Assembly: GCA_007126575.1 (NCBI GenBank)
Contig: SLBA01000045.1
Location: 1-56,341, forward strand
Length of the DNA: 56,341 nt
Source of the DNA: Gemmatimonadota bacterium
GTDB taxonomy: Bacteria > Gemmatimonadota > Gemmatimonadetes > Longimicrobiales > Gaopeijiaceae
Direction of reading: 5' to 3'
The translations under genes were made by a program, and so were the position numbers. The notes under the pieces are model-generated. The model did no database searches. It was not told the origin of the DNA and saw only the letters and a program-made list of their open reading frames with translations. Shown here piece after piece: positions 7,302-53,134 of the stretch (position 1 is its first letter; each line of letters starts with the position of its first letter).

Positions 7302-9125
7302 GTGCGATCCGACCCTCCCGACACCCCCGTGACCATGCCGACCTCTCGACCGACCCGACCGGGCCTCGCCCTCATGACCCTCGGGGCGCTGCTCGCCCTG
7401 ATGGTGGTGGTGGGGTGCAGTGACTCCCCGGCGGCTCCCGGCCCGGACGACATCGAGTTTTCGGTGGGCCAGATCACCCTGGACGGTCTGGGCGAGGCCA
7501 CCCTGGTGCTCCGGAACCGGGGGGCAGCGCCCGTGGGTCCGGTCGAGTTCATCTCGACCCCCATTCGGGCCGGTTCGGGGTCGGGCGTCCCCGGAGCCGA
7601 GATCCGGGTGTCCCCCGACCAGCTGCCGACCCTGCCGGGGGGCACCGATCGAGAGGTAACCCTTCGACTCCACCCCGGAGACGGGCTCGGAGCCGGTCAG
7701 TACACGTCGACGATCGAGGCCCGTGGGGGAAGCGGTGAGCGCCTCGCCACGCTCGAGGTGGACTTTCGGCTCGCCTGCCCCTCGGACCGGCCCCCGGCGG
7801 CCTCGTTCGAGATTCGGCCTCCCGACACCGAGCTCCGCCGGGGGGATGTGGTCACCCTCGAGGTGGACGCCCTGGACGGTGAGGGGAATCCGATCGCCGA
7901 GCCCTGCGTGACCTGGACGGTCGAGGGAAGCGGCAAAGGACTCGTCACCGGGGACGCGCGCTTCGTGGCGTATTCGACGGGCTCGATCGAGATTGCGGGC
8001 GAGAGCGGCGATGTCCGGCAGACGATCACCCTCAGGGTCGCTCCCCGAGGCGTCGGCGGGGAGCAGTTCACCCTGGTCGGAGAGGGTCTGTTGACCGAGC
8101 AGCACACCTCGGACCTGTGGCTCTGGGAGGACATCGCGTACACGGGTACCTGGGGTCAGCGGAGCGGCCCCGAGGGTCTTCGCTTCGGGAACAGCCTCCA
8201 CGCCTGGGACATCTCGGATCCCGAGGCGCCCATGAAAACGCACACCGTGCAGGTCGACGCCCGGACCGTGAACGATGTCAAGATCCGCGACGACGGCCAG
8301 ATCGCGGTGATGACCCACGAGAACTCCAACGACGGGCTGAACGGGGTCACCCTGCTCGACATGACCGACCCGACCCGGCCCGAGCCGATCACCCGCTTCA
8401 CCGACGGGCTCCAGGCCGGGATCCACAACGTCTGGATCGAGGGGGACCACGTCTACCTGGTGGTCAACGGGACCGGCAACGGGCTGCGGGTGCTCGACAT
8501 CTCGGTCCCGGCCGACCCGCAGGTGGTGGCGTCCTTCTACGGCGGATCGAGCTTCCTGCACGACGTGTACGTGCGCGACGGTCTCGCCTTCCTCTCGCAC
8601 TGGGATGCCGGGCTGATCATCCTGGATGTGGGGCACGGCATGGCCGGTGGGGCGCCCGACAACCCGGTCGAGGTGGGGCGCACCACCACGACCGGCGGGC
8701 GGACCCACAACGCCTGGTACTGGCCCGAGACCGGGTACGTCTTCGTGGGCGAAGAGAACTTCACGAGACCCGGGACCATGCACGTGATCGACGCCAGGGA
8801 TCTGACCAACCCGAAGGAGGTGGCGACCTTCGAGGTACCGGGCCAGACCCCGCACAACTTCTGGCTCGACGAGGACCGCGGGATCCTCTATCTGGCCTGG
8901 TACGGGCAGGGGCTGCGGGCCCTCGACGTGACGGGCGAGCTGCTCGGCGCCCTCGACCGACAGGGGCGCGAGATCGCCGAGGGGATGTACGGGGACCGCA
9001 GGACGTCGGGGCTCTGCACCGGCGCCCCGACCGTCACCTGCACCTGGGCGCCCCAGCTCCATCGCGGGCTGGTGTTCGTGTCCGACATGAACAGCGGGCT
9101 GCGGGTCATTCGGCCGGAGTTCTGA
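7302..9125 (+). CDS. LVIVD-repeat lipoprotein with N-terminal beta domains (propeller module copy 1)
   Basis: Surface lipoprotein of 607 aa, lipobox VVVGC (Cys39). GTG at 7302 follows GTAGGAGGGTAA, an excellent ribosome site; ATG at 7335 is an alternative. Residues 50-250 look like two Ig-like beta domains. The rest is a propeller made of repeats ending in ...LRVLDIS, LIILDVG, MHVIDAR, LRALDVT, the LVIVD-repeat signature, each preceded by H-N/D-x-W/Y. The segment QVDARTVNDVK is nearly identical in the paralogue at 51017-53134. A YncE-like lipoprotein gene follows after 2 bases in both places. LVIVD proteins have no established biochemical role. Confidence 0.85.
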   Translation: MRSDPPDTPVTMPTSRPTRPGLALMTLGALLALMVVVGCSDSPAAPGPDDIEFSVGQITLDGLGEATLVLRNRGAAPVGPVEFISTPIRAGSGSGVPGAEIRVSPDQLPTLPGGTDREVTLRLHPGDGLGAGQYTSTIEARGGSGERLATLEVDFRLACPSDRPPAASFEIRPPDTELRRGDVVTLEVDALDGEGNPIAEPCVTWTVEGSGKGLVTGDARFVAYSTGSIEIAGESGDVRQTITLRVAPRGVGGEQFTLVGEGLLTEQHTSDLWLWEDIAYTGTWGQRSGPEGLRFGNSLHAWDISDPEAPMKTHTVQVDARTVNDVKIRDDGQIAVMTHENSNDGLNGVTLLDMTDPTRPEPITRFTDGLQAGIHNVWIEGDHVYLVVNGTGNGLRVLDISVPADPQVVASFYGGSSFLHDVYVRDGLAFLSHWDAGLIILDVGHGMAGGAPDNPVEVGRTTTTGGRTHNAWYWPETGYVFVGEENFTRPGTMHVIDARDLTNPKEVATFEVPGQTPHNFWLDEDRGILYLAWYGQGLRALDVTGELLGALDRQGREIAEGMYGDRRTSGLCTGAPTVTCTWAPQLHRGLVFVSDMNSGLRVIRPEF

Positions 9126-9127
9126 GG

Positions 9128-10165
9128 GTGCGCAGGCCGTGGGCGGCCCTGGGGCTGGTGTCGATCCTGCTCGTCGCGTCGTGCGCCGGGGAGCCCGAGG
9201 GCGAGGGGGCGCGGCTCCTGGTGGCCTCGGGCTTCACCGACCAGGTCTTCGTGCTCGACCCCGAAAGCGGTGCAGTGCTGGACTCGGTCGCGATCAGAGG
9301 CCGGCCCTTCGCCCGCGACGAGCCGCACGCGATCGCCGTGTCCCCCGAGGGGGACCGGTGGTACCTGACGCTGGCCCACGGGGAGCCCGAGCTGCAGGTG
9401 TTCGAGCGGCCGGGCCATCGCCTGATCGGCGCGCTGCGCCTTCCGATGGGGGGCGCGGCCCGCATCGGGCTCACACCGGATGGACGGATCGCCTTTGTCC
9501 CGGACTTCGGCCGCAGCGCCGGGGATGAGCCGGGCGAGGTGGCGCGGATCCGGACCCGGACCCTCGAGATCACCCACCAGGTGCGAGTCTGCCCCGCCCC
9601 CCACGATGCCCGGGTGGATCCGACCGGAGAGCTCGTGCTCGTGGCCTGCGCCTTCGGATCCGAGGTGGTGCTCCTTTCGGCCGCCGACCTGAGCGAGCTG
9701 GGGCGGGTCTCGATCGGCGACGGGATGATGCCGATGCCGATGAACGTGGCCTGGTCACCGGATGGGGACCGGGCCTGGGTGACGCTGATGGGCGGGGACC
9801 GGATCGTCGAGATCGACCGCGAGGGGAGGCTCGTGCGGTCGGTGGATGCCGGGCCCCAGCCGACCTCGCTTCTGGCGACTCCGGACGGGCGGCGGCTCCT
9901 CGTCACGAACCGGCAGGGGCGCTCGCTGTCGATCTTCCATCTGCCCGGACTCGAGCTCGAACTCGAGGTGCCGCTGGGCGATGCCCCACACCCGCAGGGT
10001 ATCGCGATCGACCCCACGGGCCGGCATGCCTGGATCAGCTACGAGGGCGAGGTGGGGGGGCTGGGAGGCGTGGTCGCGGTCGAGATCGACTCGGGCGAGC
10101 TCCTCTGGCGCACCCCGGTCGGAGCCTTCGTGCTGGGGGTGGCGTGGGCGCCCGCCCTGCCCTGA
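9128..10165 (+). CDS. YncE-like beta-propeller lipoprotein
   Basis: Predicted lipoprotein of 345 aa with lipobox LVASC (Cys19). GTG at 9128 is used because it lies 2 bases after the LVIVD stop and begins the signal peptide; the frame is open far upstream only as a shadow of the LVIVD gene. The mature part is a seven-bladed YncE/cytochrome-d1-type propeller with repeated blade motifs such as AIAVSPEGDRWYLTL, NVAWSPDGDRAWVTL and LLATPDGRRLLVTN. Enzymatic residues are not evident. It is tightly coupled to the LVIVD gene and ends against the convergent msrB gene, one base between stops. Likely role: ligand or partner binding at the cell surface. Confidence 0.8.
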   Translation: MRRPWAALGLVSILLVASCAGEPEGEGARLLVASGFTDQVFVLDPESGAVLDSVAIRGRPFARDEPHAIAVSPEGDRWYLTLAHGEPELQVFERPGHRLIGALRLPMGGAARIGLTPDGRIAFVPDFGRSAGDEPGEVARIRTRTLEITHQVRVCPAPHDARVDPTGELVLVACAFGSEVVLLSAADLSELGRVSIGDGMMPMPMNVAWSPDGDRAWVTLMGGDRIVEIDREGRLVRSVDAGPQPTSLLATPDGRRLLVTNRQGRSLSIFHLPGLELELEVPLGDAPHPQGIAIDPTGRHAWISYEGEVGGLGGVVAVEIDSGELLWRTPVGAFVLGVAWAPALP

Positions 10166-10166
10166 T

Positions 10167-10616
10167 TCAATCTCCGTCGCGGTCGCCTTCGACCAGCTCC
10201 AGCGCCGCCGAGTTCAGGCAGTAGCGGAGACCGGTCGGCTCCGGCCCGTCGGGAAAGACGTGCCCCAGGTGGGCGTCGCACACCGCGCAGAGCGCCTCGG
10301 TGCGGCGCATGAAGAAGCTGCGATCCTCGCGCTCCGCCACATGCGACGGATCCACCGGCTTCCAGAAGGAGGGCCAGCCGGTCCCCGACTCGAACTTGGT
10401 CTCCGACGAGAAGAGGGGCGTTGAGCAGCAACGGCAGCGGTAGACGCCCGAGGCCTTGGTGTCCCAGTAGGCTCCCGTGAAGGCGCGCTCCGTTCCACCC
10501 TTTCGAGCGATCCGAAACTCCTCGTCGGTGAGCTCGGCCTTCCACTCCTCGTCGGTGCGCTCCACCCGCCTGGGGGGCGGATCGGCCTCGGGCGTCTCCT
10601 TCTTCCGGCCGAACAT
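10167..10616 (-). CDS. msrB: Peptide-methionine (R)-S-oxide reductase MsrB
   Basis: Reduces methionine-R-sulfoxide in proteins, with thioredoxin as the usual partner. The 149-aa protein has the catalytic Cys133 in LRYCLNSAAL, the GTGWPSFW substrate motif, and both zinc cysteine pairs (CRCC and CAVC), so it is the zinc-containing form. The N-terminus (MFGRKK followed by an acidic/Pro stretch) is cytoplasmic, with no signal peptide. ATG at 10616 overlaps the stop of the cyclophilin gene as TGATG, so the two stress/folding genes are coupled. It is the last gene of the long operon that starts with the LeuA-like gene. Confidence 0.94.
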   Translation of the reverse strand: MFGRKKETPEADPPPRRVERTDEEWKAELTDEEFRIARKGGTERAFTGAYWDTKASGVYRCRCCSTPLFSSETKFESGTGWPSFWKPVDPSHVAEREDRSFFMRRTEALCAVCDAHLGHVFPDGPEPTGLRYCLNSAALELVEGDRDGD

Positions 10617-17643: not shown

Positions 17644-20415
17644 ATGAGTACTGACAGACACGCACCCTCTCGATTCCGATCCGTATCGCTCGGCCTCGTG
17701 GGAGCCCTGGTCCTCTTGGCCCTCCCCGCAGCGATGCCGCTCGACGCGCAGACCTCCGAGACCGGGCGGATCACGGGGCAGGTGATCGACCTGGAGTCGG
17801 GACAGCCCCTGCCCGGGGCACAGATCCTGGTCGACGGCAGCGGCAGCGGGATCCTGGCCGGCGTCTCGGGACGCTTTCAGCTCGACGCCGTTCCCGTGGG
17901 CACCCGGGTCCTGAGGGTACAGTACCTGGGATACCGGCCGGCGCAGCTGGAGTCGGTCGAGGTGCGGGCCGGGGAGACGACCCGCATCGAGATTCGGCTC
18001 GAGCGGGCCGCGATCGAGGTCGAGGGGATCTCGGTCGTGGCGCAGCGGGAGGGCGGAACGGTCGCCACGGCGTTGAACGCCCAGCGCACCGCCTCTGGAG
18101 TGATGAACTCGATCTCGGCGGAGCAGATCGCCCGGTCGCCCGACGGGGACGCGGCGGCGGCGGTCAAGCGTGTGAGCGGGGTGACGGTCCAGGACGGCAA
18201 GTACGTCTTCGTGCGCGGGCTCGGCGAGCGGTACACCACGGCATCGCTCAACGGAGCCCGGATTCCGAGCCCGGAGCCCGAGCGCAAGGTGGTCCCGCTC
18301 GACCTCTTCCCGTCGGGGCTGCTCGAAGCCGTCTCGACCCAGAAGACCTTCACCCCCGACCAGCCGGGGGACTTCTCGGGGGGCGTCGTGAACATCCGCA
18401 CCCCGGAGTTTCCGCTCCGCCCGGTCTACTCGTTCTCGATGTCGACCGGCTACCGCCCCGGGATCACCGGCAGCCCGATCCCGTCGGGCCCCTCGGCCGG
18501 GAGCGAGTGGCTCGGCCTGGGCACCGGCCCACGCGCCCTTCCCGACCCGGCTCGAAACTACTCCGGCGCCGCGTCGCGGGGTGACGAGGTCAACCGGGTG
18601 GTCAACAGCTTCCGCAACTCGTGGTCGGTGCTCGAGCAGCCCGGCCGGCTCCCCGCCTCGCTCGGAGGCTCGGTCGGGGGCTCGACCGATCTGGGTGGCC
18701 GGACGCTCGGCTACCTGGGCTCGCTCACCTACTCGAACAGCCAGGAGGCCCGGCTCGACCAGCGCCGGGCGCGGGTGGGCACCGGCCAGGCCGAAATCGA
18801 CCGGTACGATGGGCAGTCGGGCTCGACCTCGGTCCTGTGGGGAGGGCTCGCCAACGTGGGACTTCTGCTCGGCAACCACTCCGAGATCCACCTGAACAAC
18901 TCGTATAACCGCAGTGCCGACAACGAGGCCCGCATCGAGATCGGTGTCGACGAGAACACCCGCTCCACGGTTCAGGTCGAGCGGCTGCGGTACGTCGAAC
19001 GGTCGGTGCGCTCCACCCAGCTGCGGGGTGAGCACCAGCTCGCGGCGGCGCACGGGATGGACTGGTCGGTCTCGCACTCCGCGGTCTCGCGCGACGAGCC
19101 CGACCGGTCGGAGTTCGTGACCTGGATGGATCCCGATACCCCGATCTGGTTCAACGACTTCGAGGGCGCCGTGCGCACCTTCGGCGGACTCGACGAATCG
19201 TCGGCCGAGGTGGGCGCGAACTACACCTTCACCCTGGCCCGGAGCGGGGGTGCACCGCACCGCATTCGGGTCGGAGGGCTCGTCCGGAGCACCGACCGGA
19301 CGGCGTCGAGCCAGGGATTCCGGATCCAGGCCTTCAACTGGACGCCCACCGATCCCCGCTGGCAGCTGCGCCCCGAGGAGTTCTTCGACGGGCGATTCGC
19401 GGCGAACGGAGACTCCGAATTCCTCCTCTCGCGTGAGCTCTCGGGCGGCAACTACACGGCGAGCGACCGTCAGGGCGCGGCGTACGCCATGACCGAAATC
19501 GAGCTGCACCCGCGTCTGCAGGTGATCACGGGCGCCCGGCTCGAGCGCTCCGAGATCCAGGTCGATGCCGAGAACCAGCTGGGCCAGGCCGATCGGACCG
19601 ATCGGGGATACACGGACCTGCTGCCCTCGCTCGGCCTAAACATCGAGCTGACCGGAACGCAGCAGCTGCGACTCGCCGGCTCCCGGACCCTGGCGCGACC
19701 CGAGTACCGCGAGATGGCGCCGATCACCTACCGCGAGGTCCTCGGGGGTGAGCAGGTGATCGGGAACCAGGAGCTCGAGCACACCCTGATCGACAACTTC
19801 GACGCGCGCTGGGAGTGGTACCCCTCGGGCGACGAACTCCTCTCGCTGGGCGTCTTCGCCAAGCGGTTCCACAACCCGATCGAGCAGCGCTACCTGGCTC
19901 GTTCCGGGACCAACACCCGCACCTTCGAGAACGCCGAGAGCGCGGTCAACTACGGGATCGAGGCCGAGGTCATGAAGCGCCTCGGGGGGCTCGATCCCCG
20001 CCTCGACCCCCTCGGCCTGTTCATGAACGTGACCGTCATGCGGTCGCGGGTGAACACGGGCAACGAGGGCGACGTGGAGCGGGCGATGGTCGGCCAGGCT
20101 CCGTACGTCCTGAATGGAGGGCTGACCTGGGCGCCGGTCGCATCGGGGCTCACGGCCACCCTCCTCTACAACGTGGTCGGGGAGCGGATCGTGAATGCGC
20201 GCGCCTCGGGGACGCAGGTCGACGATGTGGTCGAGCGGCCCCGCCACGTGGTGGATCTCTCGGTGCGCTTCCCGCTTCTGGCGGGGGCCTCCGGGAAGGT
20301 GGACCTCTCGAATCTGCTGGACTCACCGTACGAAGTCGCGCAGGGATCGGTCGTGCGCGAATTCCACCGCACGGGTCGCGGTGTCTCGGTGGGAGGGTCG
20401 TGGCAGTTCCGGTAA
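17644..20415 (+). CDS. TonB-dependent outer-membrane receptor with CarboxypepD_reg-like domain
   Basis: Outer-membrane active transporter, 923 aa. A signal peptide ends near PLDAQT. An N-terminal carboxypeptidase-regulatory-like Ig domain follows (about 38-120; GRITGQVIDLESGQPLPGA). The plug has the motif KYVFVRGLGERYTTASLNG and PGDFSGGVVNIRTPEFP, and the 22-strand barrel ends at SVGGSWQFR. ATG at 17644 is used; the frame is open to 17500 only as low-complexity sequence. Two surface lipoprotein genes follow in the same operon. The position opposite phoBRU, across GTAAC repeats, hints at uptake of a phosphorus source, but the ligand is unknown. Confidence 0.9.
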   Translation: MSTDRHAPSRFRSVSLGLVGALVLLALPAAMPLDAQTSETGRITGQVIDLESGQPLPGAQILVDGSGSGILAGVSGRFQLDAVPVGTRVLRVQYLGYRPAQLESVEVRAGETTRIEIRLERAAIEVEGISVVAQREGGTVATALNAQRTASGVMNSISAEQIARSPDGDAAAAVKRVSGVTVQDGKYVFVRGLGERYTTASLNGARIPSPEPERKVVPLDLFPSGLLEAVSTQKTFTPDQPGDFSGGVVNIRTPEFPLRPVYSFSMSTGYRPGITGSPIPSGPSAGSEWLGLGTGPRALPDPARNYSGAASRGDEVNRVVNSFRNSWSVLEQPGRLPASLGGSVGGSTDLGGRTLGYLGSLTYSNSQEARLDQRRARVGTGQAEIDRYDGQSGSTSVLWGGLANVGLLLGNHSEIHLNNSYNRSADNEARIEIGVDENTRSTVQVERLRYVERSVRSTQLRGEHQLAAAHGMDWSVSHSAVSRDEPDRSEFVTWMDPDTPIWFNDFEGAVRTFGGLDESSAEVGANYTFTLARSGGAPHRIRVGGLVRSTDRTASSQGFRIQAFNWTPTDPRWQLRPEEFFDGRFAANGDSEFLLSRELSGGNYTASDRQGAAYAMTEIELHPRLQVITGARLERSEIQVDAENQLGQADRTDRGYTDLLPSLGLNIELTGTQQLRLAGSRTLARPEYREMAPITYREVLGGEQVIGNQELEHTLIDNFDARWEWYPSGDELLSLGVFAKRFHNPIEQRYLARSGTNTRTFENAESAVNYGIEAEVMKRLGGLDPRLDPLGLFMNVTVMRSRVNTGNEGDVERAMVGQAPYVLNGGLTWAPVASGLTATLLYNVVGERIVNARASGTQVDDVVERPRHVVDLSVRFPLLAGASGKVDLSNLLDSPYEVAQGSVVREFHRTGRGVSVGGSWQFR

Positions 20416-20498
20416 CCCCGGATGAAGTCTCCGGGAGCCCCCACTCCGAGGGCTCTCGACCCATGGATCGTTCAGATCATCAAGCGAGGACTTGACTC

Positions 20499-22217
20499 AT
20501 GAAGCGCCCACTGCACATCCTGGCGGGGATTGCCCTGCTCACCGGCCTTCTGGCCGGCTGTGACGACTCGGACAGCCCTTCCGGACCCGATCTCCAACCC
20601 CCGGGCGGCGTCGCAGTCTCGGCCCTTTCGGGGACTTCGGTCCGGGTCACCTTCAGCCCCGCATCGGGCGCGTCGGCGTACATCGTCCAGCGCGCCGAGG
20701 GAGAGACGGGCGGCAGCTTCACCACCGTGGGTGAGACGGACGAGAACTCGTTCGAAGACACCGGACTGACCCCCCTCTCCGTCTACCGGTACCGCGTGGC
20801 GTCGCGCTCGGGTTCGACCCAGAGCGGCTTCTCGGGAGAGGCTCGCGTGGAGCTGCCGGAGCTGGTCACGCCCACCCGCACCATCACGGCGGACATCACC
20901 TCGGATCGCACCTTCGTAGCCGACTCGATCTACAAGCTCTCGGGCTTCATCAAGGTGGCGAACGGGGCGACGCTGACGATCGAGCCGGGCACGAAGATCG
21001 TCGGGGACTTCAACATTCCGGGCTCCTCGCTCTTCATCCTGCGGGGCGCACGGATCATCGCCGACGGCACCTCGGAAGCACCGATCGTCTTCACCTCGGA
21101 GCGCCCGCTCGGACAGCGCCAGCCCGGCGACTGGGGCGGTGTGATCATGGTGGGCAACGGGATCACGAACCGTGGCTCCCCGACCTACATCGAGGGCACG
21201 GGCACGGGGAGCGCCAACCCCCTCGTCGACTACTCGCAGGGAACCGACAACGACGACGACTCCGGGATCCTGCGCTACGTCCGGATCGAATTCGCCGGCT
21301 TCCCGACCGCCCCGAACGAAGAGCTGAACTCGCTCACGATGGCGGCCGTCGGGCGCGGAACCACGATCGAGTACGTGCAGATCCTGCTCGGCCTCGACGA
21401 CTCCTTCGAGTGGTTCGGAGGCGCGGTCGACGGGCGCTACCTCATCTCCTACGAATCGGCCGATGACCACTTCGACATGTCGGAGGGCTATGTCGGCCGG
21501 GTGCAGCACGCGATCGCCTTCCAGTCGATCCGCCCGGAGCCGCGCCCGAACCTGGCCGGGGGCGCCGCGTCGGACCCCCAGGGCCTCGAGAACGACGGCT
21601 GCTGGGCCGAGAACTGCCTGGCCGGCGACTCCAACCGGAGTGCTTCGAGCCCGTACACGGTTCCGGTCTTCGCCAACTTCACCCTGATCGGACCTCCTCC
21701 GGGTGCGTGGGAGACCCCCTCCGGAAACATCGGCATGATGCTCCGGCGCGGGACCGGCGGGCTCTACGTGAACGGCGTCGTGGCACGCTACACGCGCGCC
21801 GGGATCTCCTTTCGCGGCGAGCAGACGATGGAGCGGATGGAGAATGACCTGCTGGCGGTCCGTAACATCTACCTGACCGACAACGCCGTGACCTTCCAGA
21901 CCGGATCGGGCACGGGTGAGTCCGCACAGTTCGCGATGAACCTGGCGGCCAACGCACTCGAAGAGGGCTCCGTGGCCACCGCGGACCTCTTCGCGAACCT
22001 TCCGCTGAACACCTCGACGGCCTCGGCCGCGGACTTCGACTGGATGCCGGCCGCGGGATCGCCGATCCGCACGGGTGGGCTCGCCGACTTCTCGGGACTG
22101 CCGCAGCCGCTGCGGGACGCGGCCGCCGGCTTCGTCACCCCCACCAGCTACCGGGGCGCGGTCGACCCCAACGGTCCGCGCTGGTGGGAGGGCTGGACCT
22201 ACTACGCGCGCTTCTGA
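20499..22217 (+). CDS. Surface lipoprotein with fibronectin type III domain, partner of TonB receptor
   Basis: Lipoprotein of 572 aa, lipobox LLAGC (Cys21). A fibronectin type III domain covers about 32-118 (PPGGVAVSALSGTSVRVTF to YRYRVAS). The remaining 440 residues form a repetitive beta-rich domain with patterns like KVANGATLTIEPGTKI, WGGVIMVGNG and ILRYVRIEFAG, resembling a right-handed beta-helix. Relatives accompany TonB-dependent receptors in Bacteroidota and Gemmatimonadota and are often mislabelled as transporters. It probably captures ligand for the receptor at the surface. The gene starts 83 bases after the receptor stop. Confidence 0.8.
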   Translation: MKRPLHILAGIALLTGLLAGCDDSDSPSGPDLQPPGGVAVSALSGTSVRVTFSPASGASAYIVQRAEGETGGSFTTVGETDENSFEDTGLTPLSVYRYRVASRSGSTQSGFSGEARVELPELVTPTRTITADITSDRTFVADSIYKLSGFIKVANGATLTIEPGTKIVGDFNIPGSSLFILRGARIIADGTSEAPIVFTSERPLGQRQPGDWGGVIMVGNGITNRGSPTYIEGTGTGSANPLVDYSQGTDNDDDSGILRYVRIEFAGFPTAPNEELNSLTMAAVGRGTTIEYVQILLGLDDSFEWFGGAVDGRYLISYESADDHFDMSEGYVGRVQHAIAFQSIRPEPRPNLAGGAASDPQGLENDGCWAENCLAGDSNRSASSPYTVPVFANFTLIGPPPGAWETPSGNIGMMLRRGTGGLYVNGVVARYTRAGISFRGEQTMERMENDLLAVRNIYLTDNAVTFQTGSGTGESAQFAMNLAANALEEGSVATADLFANLPLNTSTASAADFDWMPAAGSPIRTGGLADFSGLPQPLRDAAAGFVTPTSYRGAVDPNGPRWWEGWTYYARF

Positions 22218-46925: not shown

Positions 46926-48482
46926 ATGCTCACCACTGCCGAAGCCGTCGCCATGATCCAGACCCACACCCGGTCCTCCGGCGGGCTCCGTCCCGCTGCC
47001 TCTCACCCTGCGCCCCTCCGTCGGTTCCTCGCGCTGGTCGCCCTGCTCGCGGCCGGAGCACTCGCGGGCTGTGGTTCCGGGGAGGACATGCCGGCGCCAT
47101 CGCCGGACGCGGCCGACGCTCCCGCGCCGGATTCCGACCTCGCCGCCCCCGGGTGGCTGCAGATCGAAGGGGGCTGGATGATCGACGTGATCGAGGGCGA
47201 ACGGCGGGCGAACCCCGGGATCCTGATCTCTCCCGAGGGTCGCTTCCACCGGGTGGGTGAGCAGGGTGCGACGCCCCCCGCCGATGTCGAGCCCGAGCTC
47301 CTGACGCTCGACGAAGACCTCACGATCCTTCCCGGGCTGATCGACGTGCACGCGCACTACAACATGGACCTGACGGGAGACGGCCGGATCGAGGAGACCC
47401 GCTGGAATCCCCTCGTCTTCCTCGCCAACGGGGTGACCACCACCTGGCCGGGAGGAGAGTACCGGCCCGAACTCATCCTCGCCCTCCGCGACCGGATCGA
47501 GAGCGGGGAGTGGGACGGGCCGCGGGTCATCCCCTCGGGGCCCTACTACGGGACGACCCGCCCCGGGTGGAACCGCGAGATGACGGCCGAGCAGATTCAC
47601 GCCGACGTCGACGAGTGGGTCGAGCGCGGGGTCCTGCACTTCAAGGCGAAGGGGGCCAGCCCGGAGCACCTCGAGGCGCTGATCGAACGGGTCCACCACC
47701 ACGGAGGCACGGTGGCCGGACACGTGGACTCCGGTGCCCGTGGATCGACGAACTCGGTGGATGCGATCGCGATGGGGATCAACCGGATCGAGCACATCCT
47801 CGGCGGTCACGCACTCGACCGCGAGCAGGCCGCCTACCCGGTCTGGAACCAGGTCGACACGACCGATGCGGCCTTTCGCGAGACGGTCGCGCTCTTCCTC
47901 GAAAACGAGGTCTTCTTCGATCCCACCATCACGGCACCGGTCTACTTCACCGAGCTTGAGGAGGGATTCGACGACTGGGCCGACGAGCGCGGCTTCTTCA
48001 CCCCGTACGTGCAGGAGCGGGTCGCGGCCCGGGAGCGGAGCCGCAACGAGCTGATGTCCAACCTCTACCAGGCGATGAAGCGCACCACCCTGGCCTTCTA
48101 CAACGCGGGGGGCGGCCCATGGATCACCATGGGGACCGACATCCCGAGTCGGGGGGAGTTCCTGCCCGGATTTTCGGCCCACCGGGAGCTGCACGCGATG
48201 GTGCTCGCCGGAATCCCCCCGCTGGACGCGCTGCGCGCCGGCACGATCAATGGCGCCCGCGCCCTCGAGATGGACGACGAGATCGGCTCGATCACCCCCG
48301 GAAAGTGGGCCGACCTGGCGATCGTGCGGGGGGACCCGCTCGACGACATCCGGGCCACCCGGAACGTTACGCTCGTGCTGATGGAAGGACGGGTCCACGA
48401 CCCCGGCGCCCTGCTCGACCGGGCCCGCGGCCGGATCGGACCCACCGGGCCCGAGGAGCACGGGGACTGGTGGCAGTGGTGA
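46926..48482 (+). CDS. Amidohydrolase-family lipoprotein
   Basis: Lipoprotein of 518 aa with lipobox ALAGC (Cys49). The mature part is an amidohydrolase TIM barrel: GLIDVHAHYNMD (metal-binding H-x-H), carboxylated-Lys strand candidate HFKAKGA, HVDSG, MGTDIPSRGEF (metal Asp) and PGKWADLAIVRGDP. Such exported amidohydrolases often hydrolyse peptides or cyclic amides. ATG at 46926 or 46953 is possible. GTGA overlap couples it to pncB downstream, which is an odd pairing. Substrate unknown. Confidence 0.85.
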   Translation: MLTTAEAVAMIQTHTRSSGGLRPAASHPAPLRRFLALVALLAAGALAGCGSGEDMPAPSPDAADAPAPDSDLAAPGWLQIEGGWMIDVIEGERRANPGILISPEGRFHRVGEQGATPPADVEPELLTLDEDLTILPGLIDVHAHYNMDLTGDGRIEETRWNPLVFLANGVTTTWPGGEYRPELILALRDRIESGEWDGPRVIPSGPYYGTTRPGWNREMTAEQIHADVDEWVERGVLHFKAKGASPEHLEALIERVHHHGGTVAGHVDSGARGSTNSVDAIAMGINRIEHILGGHALDREQAAYPVWNQVDTTDAAFRETVALFLENEVFFDPTITAPVYFTELEEGFDDWADERGFFTPYVQERVAARERSRNELMSNLYQAMKRTTLAFYNAGGGPWITMGTDIPSRGEFLPGFSAHRELHAMVLAGIPPLDALRAGTINGARALEMDDEIGSITPGKWADLAIVRGDPLDDIRATRNVTLVLMEGRVHDPGALLDRARGRIGPTGPEEHGDWWQW

Positions 48483-49815: not shown

Positions 49816-51003
49816 CTACGGGGCGTCCGCGGCCTCCATCTTCCAGAAGGCGATCCCCGACGCCTGCTGCCCGACCGGGACCGACGCCACCACTTCGAGT
49901 GCCCCCAGGTCGAAGATGTCGACCTTTCCGGGCTCGCTCCCGATCCCCTCGACGCTGATGAAGGCGTAGCGCGAATCGGGCGAGAGGGCGATCCCGTGCA
50001 CCACGCGTGTCGAGGCAGGCAGCCGGGCCAGGCTCTCTCCCGACTCGAGCTCGAAAAACTCGACCCCGTCGCCCTGCTTGAGCGTCACCACCAGGATCCG
50101 ACCATCGGGGGTGACGTCGACATTGTAGGGGCCGCGTCCGGTGGCGATGCGACGGCGATGCGTCCAGCTCTCGAGGTCGATCTCGACGAGTTCGTCGGAG
50201 CGGTTGCAGACGACCCAGGCGAAGGCGCCGTCGGGCGTGGGCTGGACCCAGGTGGGAGAGCACGAGGCCGTGTGCCCCATGTCGTGGCCCGCGTGGGGCC
50301 CGTGCGGGTCGTGCGGGCCCCGGTCGGAGGGATCCAGGGGGCCCTCCTCGCCCGCGGCGAGGTGGTAGCGGCGCCGCACCTCGAGGGTCAGCAGGTCGAG
50401 CTCGACGAGCTGATCGTCCATCATGCATGCCGAGTAGTGTCGTCGACCCGCGGGGTGCACGCGACTCCCGTGCGGCATCGTGCAGGTCTCGATCCGGCCC
50501 ACCTCGGTCATCCCGTCGGTGCGGACCACCGAGATGCTCGATGGCTCCATCCGACCGTGCAGGTTGAAGTTGGCGACCGCCACGTACCCCCCGTCGGGCG
50601 AGACTCCGAGGCTTGCGGGAAAGCGGCCCAGGTCGACGGGGTCGGCCAGGAGGCGTCCGCTCCCCGCCTCCAGCGCCCACAGCTTCCCGTCGGGAAGCCC
50701 GTGCCCGGTGGTCAGGTAGACCGTTCCCCCGTCGGCGTCGATGGCAATGCCGTGGGGGGCCTCGCTCTCGGAGTAGAGCTCCGGAACCGAGGACTGCCGG
50801 TACAGATGACCGACCGAATACTCCTCCTCGACCACCGCCCCCCCGGGACCGAAGCGGATCCGGTGCACGAAGTCGGCGGACTCCGAGCCCACGTACACCC
50901 AGTAGGTGGCCGTGGGGTCGGCTTCGGCCTGTTCGGACGCCGGGTCGGGCGCACCCGATCCGGCCGCCAGGAGGAGTGCCAGGGCGAGGGTCAGACTCGA
51001 CAT
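49816..51003 (-). CDS. YncE-like beta-propeller protein with His-rich loop (propeller module copy 2)
   Basis: Exported propeller of 395 aa with a short signal peptide ending near GSGAPDP. Blades show repeated NVDVTPDGRILVVTL, GIALSPDSRYAFISVE and LGVSPDGGYVAVANFN. A loop at about 229-248 carries five histidines in 14 residues (HDPHGPHAGHDMGH), a possible copper or zinc site. Cys174, Cys193 and Cys248 lie close to it in sequence. It follows the LVIVD gene at 51017 after 13 bases, mirroring the pair at 7302-10165. A metal or redox role is possible but unproven. Confidence 0.82.
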   Translation of the reverse strand: MSSLTLALALLLAAGSGAPDPASEQAEADPTATYWVYVGSESADFVHRIRFGPGGAVVEEEYSVGHLYRQSSVPELYSESEAPHGIAIDADGGTVYLTTGHGLPDGKLWALEAGSGRLLADPVDLGRFPASLGVSPDGGYVAVANFNLHGRMEPSSISVVRTDGMTEVGRIETCTMPHGSRVHPAGRRHYSACMMDDQLVELDLLTLEVRRRYHLAAGEEGPLDPSDRGPHDPHGPHAGHDMGHTASCSPTWVQPTPDGAFAWVVCNRSDELVEIDLESWTHRRRIATGRGPYNVDVTPDGRILVVTLKQGDGVEFFELESGESLARLPASTRVVHGIALSPDSRYAFISVEGIGSEPGKVDIFDLGALEVVASVPVGQQASGIAFWKMEAADAP

Positions 51004-51016
51004 GGGCCTCTCCCCG

Positions 51017-53134
51017 TCAGGGGATCAATCCGGCTTCGGGAAGGAGGCGCACCGACCAGAGCCCGGAGTTCGCATCCGACAGGAAGATGTTCCCCTTGTA
51101 GGGCATGGCGCTCCAGGTGGTCGGCGCGTTGGAGACGTAGCCGATCGGATCGTTCGGCTTGAAGACGGCGATCTCGCGGCCCTGCGCGTACAGGTTGCCG
51201 CGCAACTCCCCGGACACGTCGACGACGCGCAGACCGCCCTCGTAGTAGGCCTGGTAGAGGATGTCGTCTTCGACCCAGATGTTGTGCGTCCCGTACTCGG
51301 GGACGTGGTAGCGGGCCACCTTCTGCGGGTTCTCGGGGTCGGTGTAGTCGACGATGTGGATGTAACCGGCGGTGTTCCGGGGCGTCCCGCTGCCGGGCAC
51401 GTCCGGGTCGTAGGGAGCGCGGTTCATGCCCCCCTCGAGCGCGAAGCCGCGCCGGCCGATCACCTCGTCTCCGGCGAAGATGTAGAAGCGCCCGGTGTCC
51501 TCCTGGTAGTAGGGGAAGACGGCGTGGGTGTTGCCCCCGGGGAGCGGGTAGGTGTTGACGACCACCGGGTTCTCGGGCGACCCGCCCCACCGGCCGTTGC
51601 CGACATCGACCTGCACGATCCCGGTCCGCCACTCGGCCGAATAGGCGATGCCGTCGTGCACCCAGACGTCGTGGATCCGCGAGCCTGGAATGTCGACCTC
51701 GCTGACCGTGCGCGGCGCGTAGATGTCGGACATGTCGACGATCAGGTAGCGCTCCCCACCCGACAGCACGTAGAGGTAGTCATCCTGCGGGTAGGCGTTG
51801 TGCACCCCGCCGGTGAGCCCCTCGTCGAACTCGATCGCGATGACCGGGTGGGCCGGCTCGGCCATGTCGAGGATCACCACGCCGTTGCGGCGGTCGGATG
51901 CCCCCTCGCGGGTGAGGGTCGCGTAGCGGCCGTCGGGCGAGACCTTCACGTCGTTGACCGTGCGCGCGTCGACCTGGATCGAGTCGGTGAGGATCATGTT
52001 CTCGGGGTCGGTGACATCCCAGAAGTACGAGAAGCCGTCGGACCCCCAGGTCCCGGTCACTGCGTAGTCCCGTCCGTCGACCCCCTCGAAGACCCAGAAG
52101 TCCGAGGTGCGGCGGTGCGAGACCCGGCCCTGGCCGAGCACCTCGATGCGTCGGACCACCTGTCGGCTCTCGATCTCGACCGAGCGGAAAGCCGTGAGGT
52201 GGCCGGCCTGCGCCCAGACCGTGTAGCTGCCCGGGAACTGCGCCACGAACTCACCCCCGTCGACCTGGGCCGCTGCCCCGGGAGCGACGATCGAGTCGTG
52301 CGGGGTGTAGGTGTAGCTCCACCGGATCGGGAGCTCGTCGACGGCGTCGGTCGCCGGGCTGCCCCCCTCGGAGACCAGCCGGGGCTCGAAGAAGACCACG
52401 TCTCCCGTGTACGCCGACTCGTGGTCGGCCTCGAGTTCGAGGGCACCGTCGGGCAGGGGGGTCACCGTCTGGGCGTAGCGGCCCTCGGTGCCGTCGACCT
52501 CGGCGACGATCTCGACGGGGCCCTCACCGGTCACGGTAACCATCCCGTTCCGGTCCACCCGGGCCACCTCGGGATTCGAGCTCCGCCATTCGATGTCGGG
52601 ATAGGCCCGCTCCGATCCGTCGGCGTGCAGACCCTTCGCCGTGAATCGGACATGGGTGCCGCTGAAAAGTCTACCTTCCCGAGGCTCGACCCGAACCTCG
52701 GCGATCGAGGGCCAGGTGACCTCGACCGTGATCACCGCGACCGGCGGCTCCATGTCGCTCCCCTCGGGGGGGATGACGGCGACCATCACCCGGTACTCGC
52801 CCACCCCGATGCCGAGGAGCTCGCCATCGACGGCCTCGACCCCGTTGCGGGCCCCCTGAATGAAGATCGGGGGGTTCAGCTCGTTGCCGTCTCCGTCGAG
52901 CGCTCTGACCGTGAGGGGCACCCGTTCCCCCACCGCAACCTGCACCTGCTGCGGCTCGACGACCAGGCGGGTCACCTCGAGGGCGTCCTGGGGTCGGACC
53001 TCCTGGCCGGAGGCCGGGGTCGTCGCAAGGGGCGCGGTCAGGAGGAGCAGCACGGTGCCGGCCATGGCGATCGGCTGGGCGAGCGGGCGCGAGCGGAGCG
53101 TGGGCCGGGCGGGGAGGGAGGATCGGGATGACAT
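51017..53134 (-). CDS. LVIVD-repeat protein with Ig-like N-terminal domains (propeller module copy 2)
   Basis: Exported protein of 705 aa. Signal peptide ends near PASGQE. Residues 50-330 contain several Ig-like/BIG beta domains (LVVEPQQVQVAVGERVPLTVRA, EWRSSNPEVARVD, split here). The C-terminal half is an LVIVD propeller with GVVILDMAEPAHP, YLIVDMSD, IVQVDVGNG and LRVVDVS. It contains QVDARTVNDVK, as in the 7302 protein. The start, ATG at 53134, begins MSSRSSLPARP. The propeller gene follows after 13 bases, so both are one operon. Confidence 0.85.
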   Translation of the reverse strand: MSSRSSLPARPTLRSRPLAQPIAMAGTVLLLLTAPLATTPASGQEVRPQDALEVTRLVVEPQQVQVAVGERVPLTVRALDGDGNELNPPIFIQGARNGVEAVDGELLGIGVGEYRVMVAVIPPEGSDMEPPVAVITVEVTWPSIAEVRVEPREGRLFSGTHVRFTAKGLHADGSERAYPDIEWRSSNPEVARVDRNGMVTVTGEGPVEIVAEVDGTEGRYAQTVTPLPDGALELEADHESAYTGDVVFFEPRLVSEGGSPATDAVDELPIRWSYTYTPHDSIVAPGAAAQVDGGEFVAQFPGSYTVWAQAGHLTAFRSVEIESRQVVRRIEVLGQGRVSHRRTSDFWVFEGVDGRDYAVTGTWGSDGFSYFWDVTDPENMILTDSIQVDARTVNDVKVSPDGRYATLTREGASDRRNGVVILDMAEPAHPVIAIEFDEGLTGGVHNAYPQDDYLYVLSGGERYLIVDMSDIYAPRTVSEVDIPGSRIHDVWVHDGIAYSAEWRTGIVQVDVGNGRWGGSPENPVVVNTYPLPGGNTHAVFPYYQEDTGRFYIFAGDEVIGRRGFALEGGMNRAPYDPDVPGSGTPRNTAGYIHIVDYTDPENPQKVARYHVPEYGTHNIWVEDDILYQAYYEGGLRVVDVSGELRGNLYAQGREIAVFKPNDPIGYVSNAPTTWSAMPYKGNIFLSDANSGLWSVRLLPEAGLIP

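Follow-up and report, generated by a model that had tools for sequence, protein, structure and literature searches.

Two solved structures, 5HRM and 5IOJ, represent Sb-PTE, the phosphotriesterase or haloalkylphosphorus hydrolase of Sphingobium sp. TCM1, and the metal ligands of this enzyme are Glu201 (bridging), His258, His317, His389, Glu407 and His475. Sb-PTE acts in flame-retardant breakdown (PMC11656708, PMC5460133), and a paper among the references of PMC11656708 (Mabanglo et al. 2016) names in its title a binuclear metal centre inside the seven-bladed propeller of the enzyme. No function is attached to the annotation of LVIVD or choice-of-anchor-B proteins, and the titles and abstracts of open-access literature on LVIVD yielded the paper that defined the repeat in 2004 and no functional study. 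Here we analyse a 56,341-nucleotide stretch of a Gemmatimonadota genome (the window) in which two genes for LVIVD propeller proteins are each followed by a gene for a YncE-like companion propeller. The initial annotation had held that no function is known for LVIVD repeats; that statement has to be revised, as Sb-PTE, a solved and characterised enzyme, is a detectable relative that shares a His/Glu site with these proteins. Because of this kinship and the kept site, an enzyme is a more likely identity for the LVIVD protein than a passive surface device, and from the alignments and a structural model it is probably an enzyme.

Two pairs of propeller genes in the window

All four open reading frames were found where the initial annotation had placed them, in the order and shared direction it described (Table 1), with 2 bases between P0002 and P0001 in copy 1 and 13 bases between P0003 and P0004 in copy 2. 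Each was chosen by a codon-usage gene caller, whose calls support the surrounding genes more than these four, which were part of its training set. The strings QVDARTVNDVK, TSD-x-W...TGTWG and NSGL recur in both LVIVD proteins, as noted before. Export, previously proposed for both propellers, is consistent with signals recognised by eye in all four products: lipoprotein-like signals in P0002 (VVVGC, Cys39) and P0001 (LLVASC, Cys19), and ordinary signal peptides in P0003 and P0004.

Table 1. Positions in the window of the paired genes and of residues at the predicted metal site
Feature	Position	Strand	Remark
P0002, type-1 LVIVD propeller protein	7302..9125	+	GTG start, 607 aa
P0001, type-1 companion propeller	9128..10165	+	GTG start, 345 aa
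P0003, type-2 LVIVD propeller protein	51017..53134	-	705 aa
P0004, type-2 companion propeller, exported	49816..51003	-	395 aa
P0003 Glu410	51905..51907	-	invariant 59/59; possible stand-in for Sb-PTE bridging Glu
P0003 His445, predicted metal ligand	51800..51802	-	aligns with Sb-PTE His258
P0003 His488, predicted metal ligand	51671..51673	-	aligns with Sb-PTE His317
P0003 His537, predicted metal ligand	51524..51526	-	aligns with Sb-PTE His389
P0003 Glu557, predicted metal ligand	51464..51466	-	aligns with Sb-PTE Glu407
P0003 His617, predicted metal ligand	51284..51286	-	aligns with Sb-PTE His475
P0002 Glu340	8319..8321	+	equivalent of P0003 Glu410
P0002 His375, predicted metal ligand	8424..8426	+	aligns with Sb-PTE His258
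P0002 His420, predicted metal ligand	8559..8561	+	aligns with Sb-PTE His317
P0002 His469, predicted metal ligand	8706..8708	+	aligns with Sb-PTE His389
P0002 Glu485, predicted metal ligand	8754..8756	+	aligns with Sb-PTE Glu407
P0002 His518, predicted metal ligand	8853..8855	+	aligns with Sb-PTE His475

Of the earlier description of a duplicated module, the presence of two like pairs stands and a single event in this genome does not. P0002 and P0003 are 33% identical over 488 aa (E 2e-75) and P0001 and P0004 are 29% identical over 311 aa (E 5e-28); the two pairs represent two old lineages, each conserved elsewhere in Gemmatimonadota, and this divergence together with the separate conservation rules out a recent duplication within the genome. 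In type 2 (49.8-53.1 kb) the two genes are neighbours in ~60 non-redundant cases, whether codirectional, divergent or convergent. For type 1 (7.3-10.2 kb), a P0002 relative lies directly upstream on the same strand at every one of the 13 loci that carry a close relative of P0001, and a companion falls inside the 1.5 kb flank of 18 of the 28 P0002-type loci. Partner distances over 60 non-redundant pairs correlate with r 0.81 (permutation maximum 0.19), a value that is confounded by species descent, which alone could produce much of it. In a quick tree of the companion, on which P0001 occupies a very long branch, the arrangement changes several times and adjacency is retained.

Other genes of the window lie near these pairs. 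A methionine sulfoxide reductase B gene (10167-10616, minus strand) is convergent to the type-1 pair, and such a gene stands beside many type-1 pairs elsewhere (L245-L286), with all three genes present in 19 of 48 loci scanned. An exported amidohydrolase-like gene lies near copy 2 (46926-48482, plus strand), and its homologue L057 is found near a pair in another genus. Between the two pairs, positions 17698-22217 (plus strand) hold a 905-aa open reading frame with a TonB-dependent-receptor-like start, followed by a 572-aa lipoprotein-like open reading frame.

Recurrence of the pairing in Gemmatimonadota

The pairing was looked for in other genomes within Gemmatimonadota and is present in many of them, far above chance, which upholds the conserved adjacency of LVIVD and YncE-like genes that had been proposed; the GTDB scan behind the survey returned almost only records titled Gemmatimonadota. 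By our own estimate, ~5 LVIVD and 3-4 partner genes among ~3500 should yield ~0.01 adjacent pair per genome by chance, and the number of pairs rules out chance adjacency. Of 200 genomes sampled from the phylum, 184 match P0003 and 177 match P0004, totals that are upper bounds, since the former include matches to Ig-like domains and the latter matches to generic propellers.

Among 80 fetched regions, partly selected on matches, there are 49 LVIVD-companion neighbours, of which 24 are codirectional with the LVIVD gene first, 20 divergent and 5 convergent. None of the 49 has the companion first, and one such case occurs in the later tree set. Several pairs in these regions show 4-base gene overlaps, suggesting translational coupling. 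The GTDB and 30-genome samples are less biased: a companion lies next door at 18 of the best 80 LVIVD loci of the GTDB scan, and the best companion match of each of 30 genomes has an LVIVD gene within 1.5 kb in 17 and lacks one in 13. The pairing is thus one-sided: LVIVD genes mostly stand without a companion, and the close companions have an LVIVD neighbour about half the time. The source genome itself encodes at least five full LVIVD genes of the P0002/P0003 family and four companion-type propeller genes, and most of its LVIVD copies are unpaired. Since 13 of the 30 companions lack an LVIVD neighbour and most LVIVD paralogues are unpaired, neither protein always needs the other beside it.

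Neighbour clustering over 160 regions revealed no third partner gene common to the pairs, only local synteny, and no natural fusion of LVIVD protein and companion was seen among the proteins scanned. Weak LVIVD-profile matches beside unpaired companions (cluster 162, for example L111 and L143) were rejected as pairs, as they share the Big_2 domains and not the propeller. A third pairing does exist in the source genome (L050, contig C113): downstream of the gene for a choice-of-anchor-B protein that carries FG-GAP repeats lie those for a distant companion-like propeller and for an FG-GAP lipoprotein. Companion genes without an LVIVD neighbour (L101, L103, L104, L107, L108, L063) lie in a locus with genes that by eye are Mla-like ABC transporter, CNNM-like and signal-peptidase-II-like, and in L063 an LVIVD gene occupies the same place in the Mla-like transporter locus. 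Outside records titled Gemmatimonadota, MAGs titled Gammaproteobacteria (L204, L206, L207, L210) encode LVIVD proteins with 65-66% identity to P0003, reflecting mislabelled bins or transfer; haloarchaeal plasmids (H13-H18, H31-H36) encode distant LVIVD relatives, two of them side by side in Halorussus aquaticus, and plasmid matches also occur in rhizobia.

The LVIVD protein is a relative of Sb-PTE

P0003 consists of a signal peptide, Ig-like (Big_2) domains and a seven-bladed propeller (residues 325-702), and P0002 has a middle part with sub-cut-off Ig-like matches ahead of a seven-bladed propeller at approximately residues 250-607. Both exceed the cut-off of Pfam LVIVD (PF08309; 36.7 and 29.8 bits against 20.2), P0003 additionally matches the Pfam Big_2 domain, and both fall below the cut-off of the NCBIfam choice-of-anchor-B model TIGR04312 (68.2 and 62.2 against 100).

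Searched against the PDB, the propeller profile gave 5HRM (E 6e-5) and 5IOJ as its only significant matches. An AlphaFold2 model of P0003 (mean pLDDT 90.6), comprising Ig-like domains and propeller, likewise had 5HRM as its best structural match (Z 35.8, rmsd 2.3, 330 residues aligned, 18% identity), with unrelated WD40 propellers ~3 units lower at Z ~33; Foldseek matches to the whole model were dominated by the Ig-like domains. The sequence of Sb-PTE was taken from P0005, an almost identical Sphingobium plasmid protein, which carries Glu201, His258, His317, His389, Glu407 and, allowing for one inserted residue, the His at 475. Global profile alignment (hhalign) with Sb-PTE homologues yielded E 2e-31, a value that speaks for homology and not for residue matching, as the path is out of register in the first blades. 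The structural range and a joint MAFFT alignment were preferred to the register of the local hhalign, which lay about one blade off.

In that joint alignment of P0003 with five Sb-PTE-like proteins, the four His and the Glu are in register (Table 1). His445, His488, His537, His617 and Glu557 are conserved in 59 of 59 members of the P0003 family, as are R391, N394, D395, E410, N417, D489, D596, Q651 and R653, and every type-1 LVIVD protein retains the four His and the Glu, as does the choice-of-anchor-B protein L050. Bridging Glu201 is not kept in the LVIVD family in this alignment, in which Arg391 of P0003 takes its place; Glu410 may replace it. With Glu201 missing, we would not classify the LVIVD protein as a phosphotriesterase, but as a protein that possibly works like one.

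The companion has its own conserved pocket

The model of P0004 (pLDDT 91.7) is a seven-bladed propeller whose nearest solved fold is 1L0Q, an archaeal surface-layer YVTN propeller, with the propellers of nitrous oxide reductase and thiocyanate dehydrogenase further down the list; these matches to a predicted model indicate fold and not function. P0004 exceeds the cut-offs of Pfam YNCE (PF21783; 34 against 27.1), Lactonase and Cytochrom_D1. No match to YNCE is listed for P0001, and no Pfam model reaches its cut-off with that protein. Assignment to YncE proper was rejected (equivalog NF052280, 11.5 and 16.8 against 400), as were L-NosZ for P0004 (NF052460, 50.8 against 700) and hydrazine synthase (NCBIfam score far under the cut-off).

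Conserved residues of P0004 are His84, His101, His178, His336, Glu352 and the pairs Cys174/Cys193 and Cys248/Cys266; in its family His84, His178 and Glu352 are invariant and the two Cys pairs nearly so. Those of P0001 are His67, His84, Cys155, His159, Cys174, Arg262 and Glu306, all except His84 being present in 20 of 20 P0001-type proteins, and Gln290 of P0001 stands where 18 of the 20 have His. The companion thus has a conserved His/Cys/Glu pocket of its own.

Proposed mechanism and alternatives

We propose, at about an even chance of being right, that each module specifies an exported metal-dependent propeller hydrolase, a distant relative of Sb-PTE, together with a dedicated exported companion of the YVTN/YncE type. 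The four His, each predicted to start the inner strand of one of four adjacent blades, and the Glu (Glu557 in P0003), which would end a neighbouring strand, would together bind one or two divalent metals on the axis of the propeller. A metal-activated water could then attack an ester, most likely a phosphoester, in the axial pocket. Through a His/Glu pocket of its own, the companion, whose gene lies immediately downstream or is divergent, would bind the LVIVD protein or that protein's substrate, acting as a docked partner or a substrate-handling subunit. The fold match, the profile homology, the conserved site and the recurrent pairing speak for this proposal; the loss of Glu201, the absence of cysteine from P0003, the low sequence identity and the many unpaired genes speak against it. 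That the two propellers form one device, as the initial annotation suggested, is something we infer from a pairing that is one-sided.

The same one-sidedness suits a different account, in which the neighbouring genes share regulation and serve related tasks, no complex is formed and the companion has a function of its own. Divergent and convergent arrangements, and the unpaired companions near the Mla-like ABC transporter cluster, agree with this account; however, adjacency survives changes of orientation, holds in each of two separate lineages and comes with very short gaps, and we consider this account unlikely. Catalysis itself might be absent, with both propellers serving surface or binding roles such as adhesion or ligand capture and the invariant residues being structural or ligand-holding. 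The Ig-like domains and lipoprotein signals would fit a surface role, as would 1L0Q as the companion's nearest solved fold, but some fifteen polar residues are invariant, among them four His at blade positions equivalent to those of Sb-PTE, which is more than a scaffold needs, and in our judgement this reading is quite unlikely.

The LVIVD propeller could also be an oxygenase holding a single iron on four His. A 4-His iron site with outer-shell glutamates is of the carotenoid-cleavage-oxygenase type, and four invariant His with an invariant Glu on a seven-bladed propeller would suit it. The relative found by both sequence and fold is a hydrolase, however, and no carotenoid oxygenase appears among the 50 structural matches listed; we regard an oxygenase as improbable. 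A broader form of the hydrolase proposal would unite the LVIVD propellers of Gemmatimonadota and the choice-of-anchor-B proteins in a large, uncharacterised metallo-propeller hydrolase superfamily from which Sb-PTE was drawn, some members forming two-propeller complexes with a metal or ligand site in both subunits; this we hold to be doubtful, if conceivable.

A four-His and Glu site in common with a solved phosphotriesterase turns LVIVD and choice-of-anchor-B proteins into testable enzymes. They are also a possible source of natural ancestors for Sb-PTE, whose evolution is attributed to recent pollutants, and the pairing raises the question why a second propeller accompanies LVIVD proteins throughout a whole phylum.

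Comparison with known systems

The companion resembles YncE and other YVTN propellers, hydrazine synthase beta, NirF and the nitrous oxide reductase propeller in fold and in PHG-type inner-strand motifs; its conserved pocket differs from theirs, and it scores far below the cut-off of every specific NCBIfam propeller model. For the LVIVD protein, Pfam PF08309 supplies a repeat definition without assigned function that is silent on a metal site. The choice-of-anchor-B model TIGR04312 matches the LVIVD propeller below threshold, and the member-like protein L050 retains the four His and the Glu and is likewise encoded ahead of a companion-like propeller, yet residues invariant in the LVIVD family (E410, N417, Q651 and R653) differ. 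From Sb-PTE the LVIVD family departs in lacking bridging Glu201, in its low sequence identity, in added Ig-like domains and in pairing with a second propeller; P0003 contains no cysteine, whereas Sb-PTE has disulfides. What the two have in common is a seven-bladed propeller, with Sb-PTE as the best fold match, and the conserved positions of the four His and Glu407.
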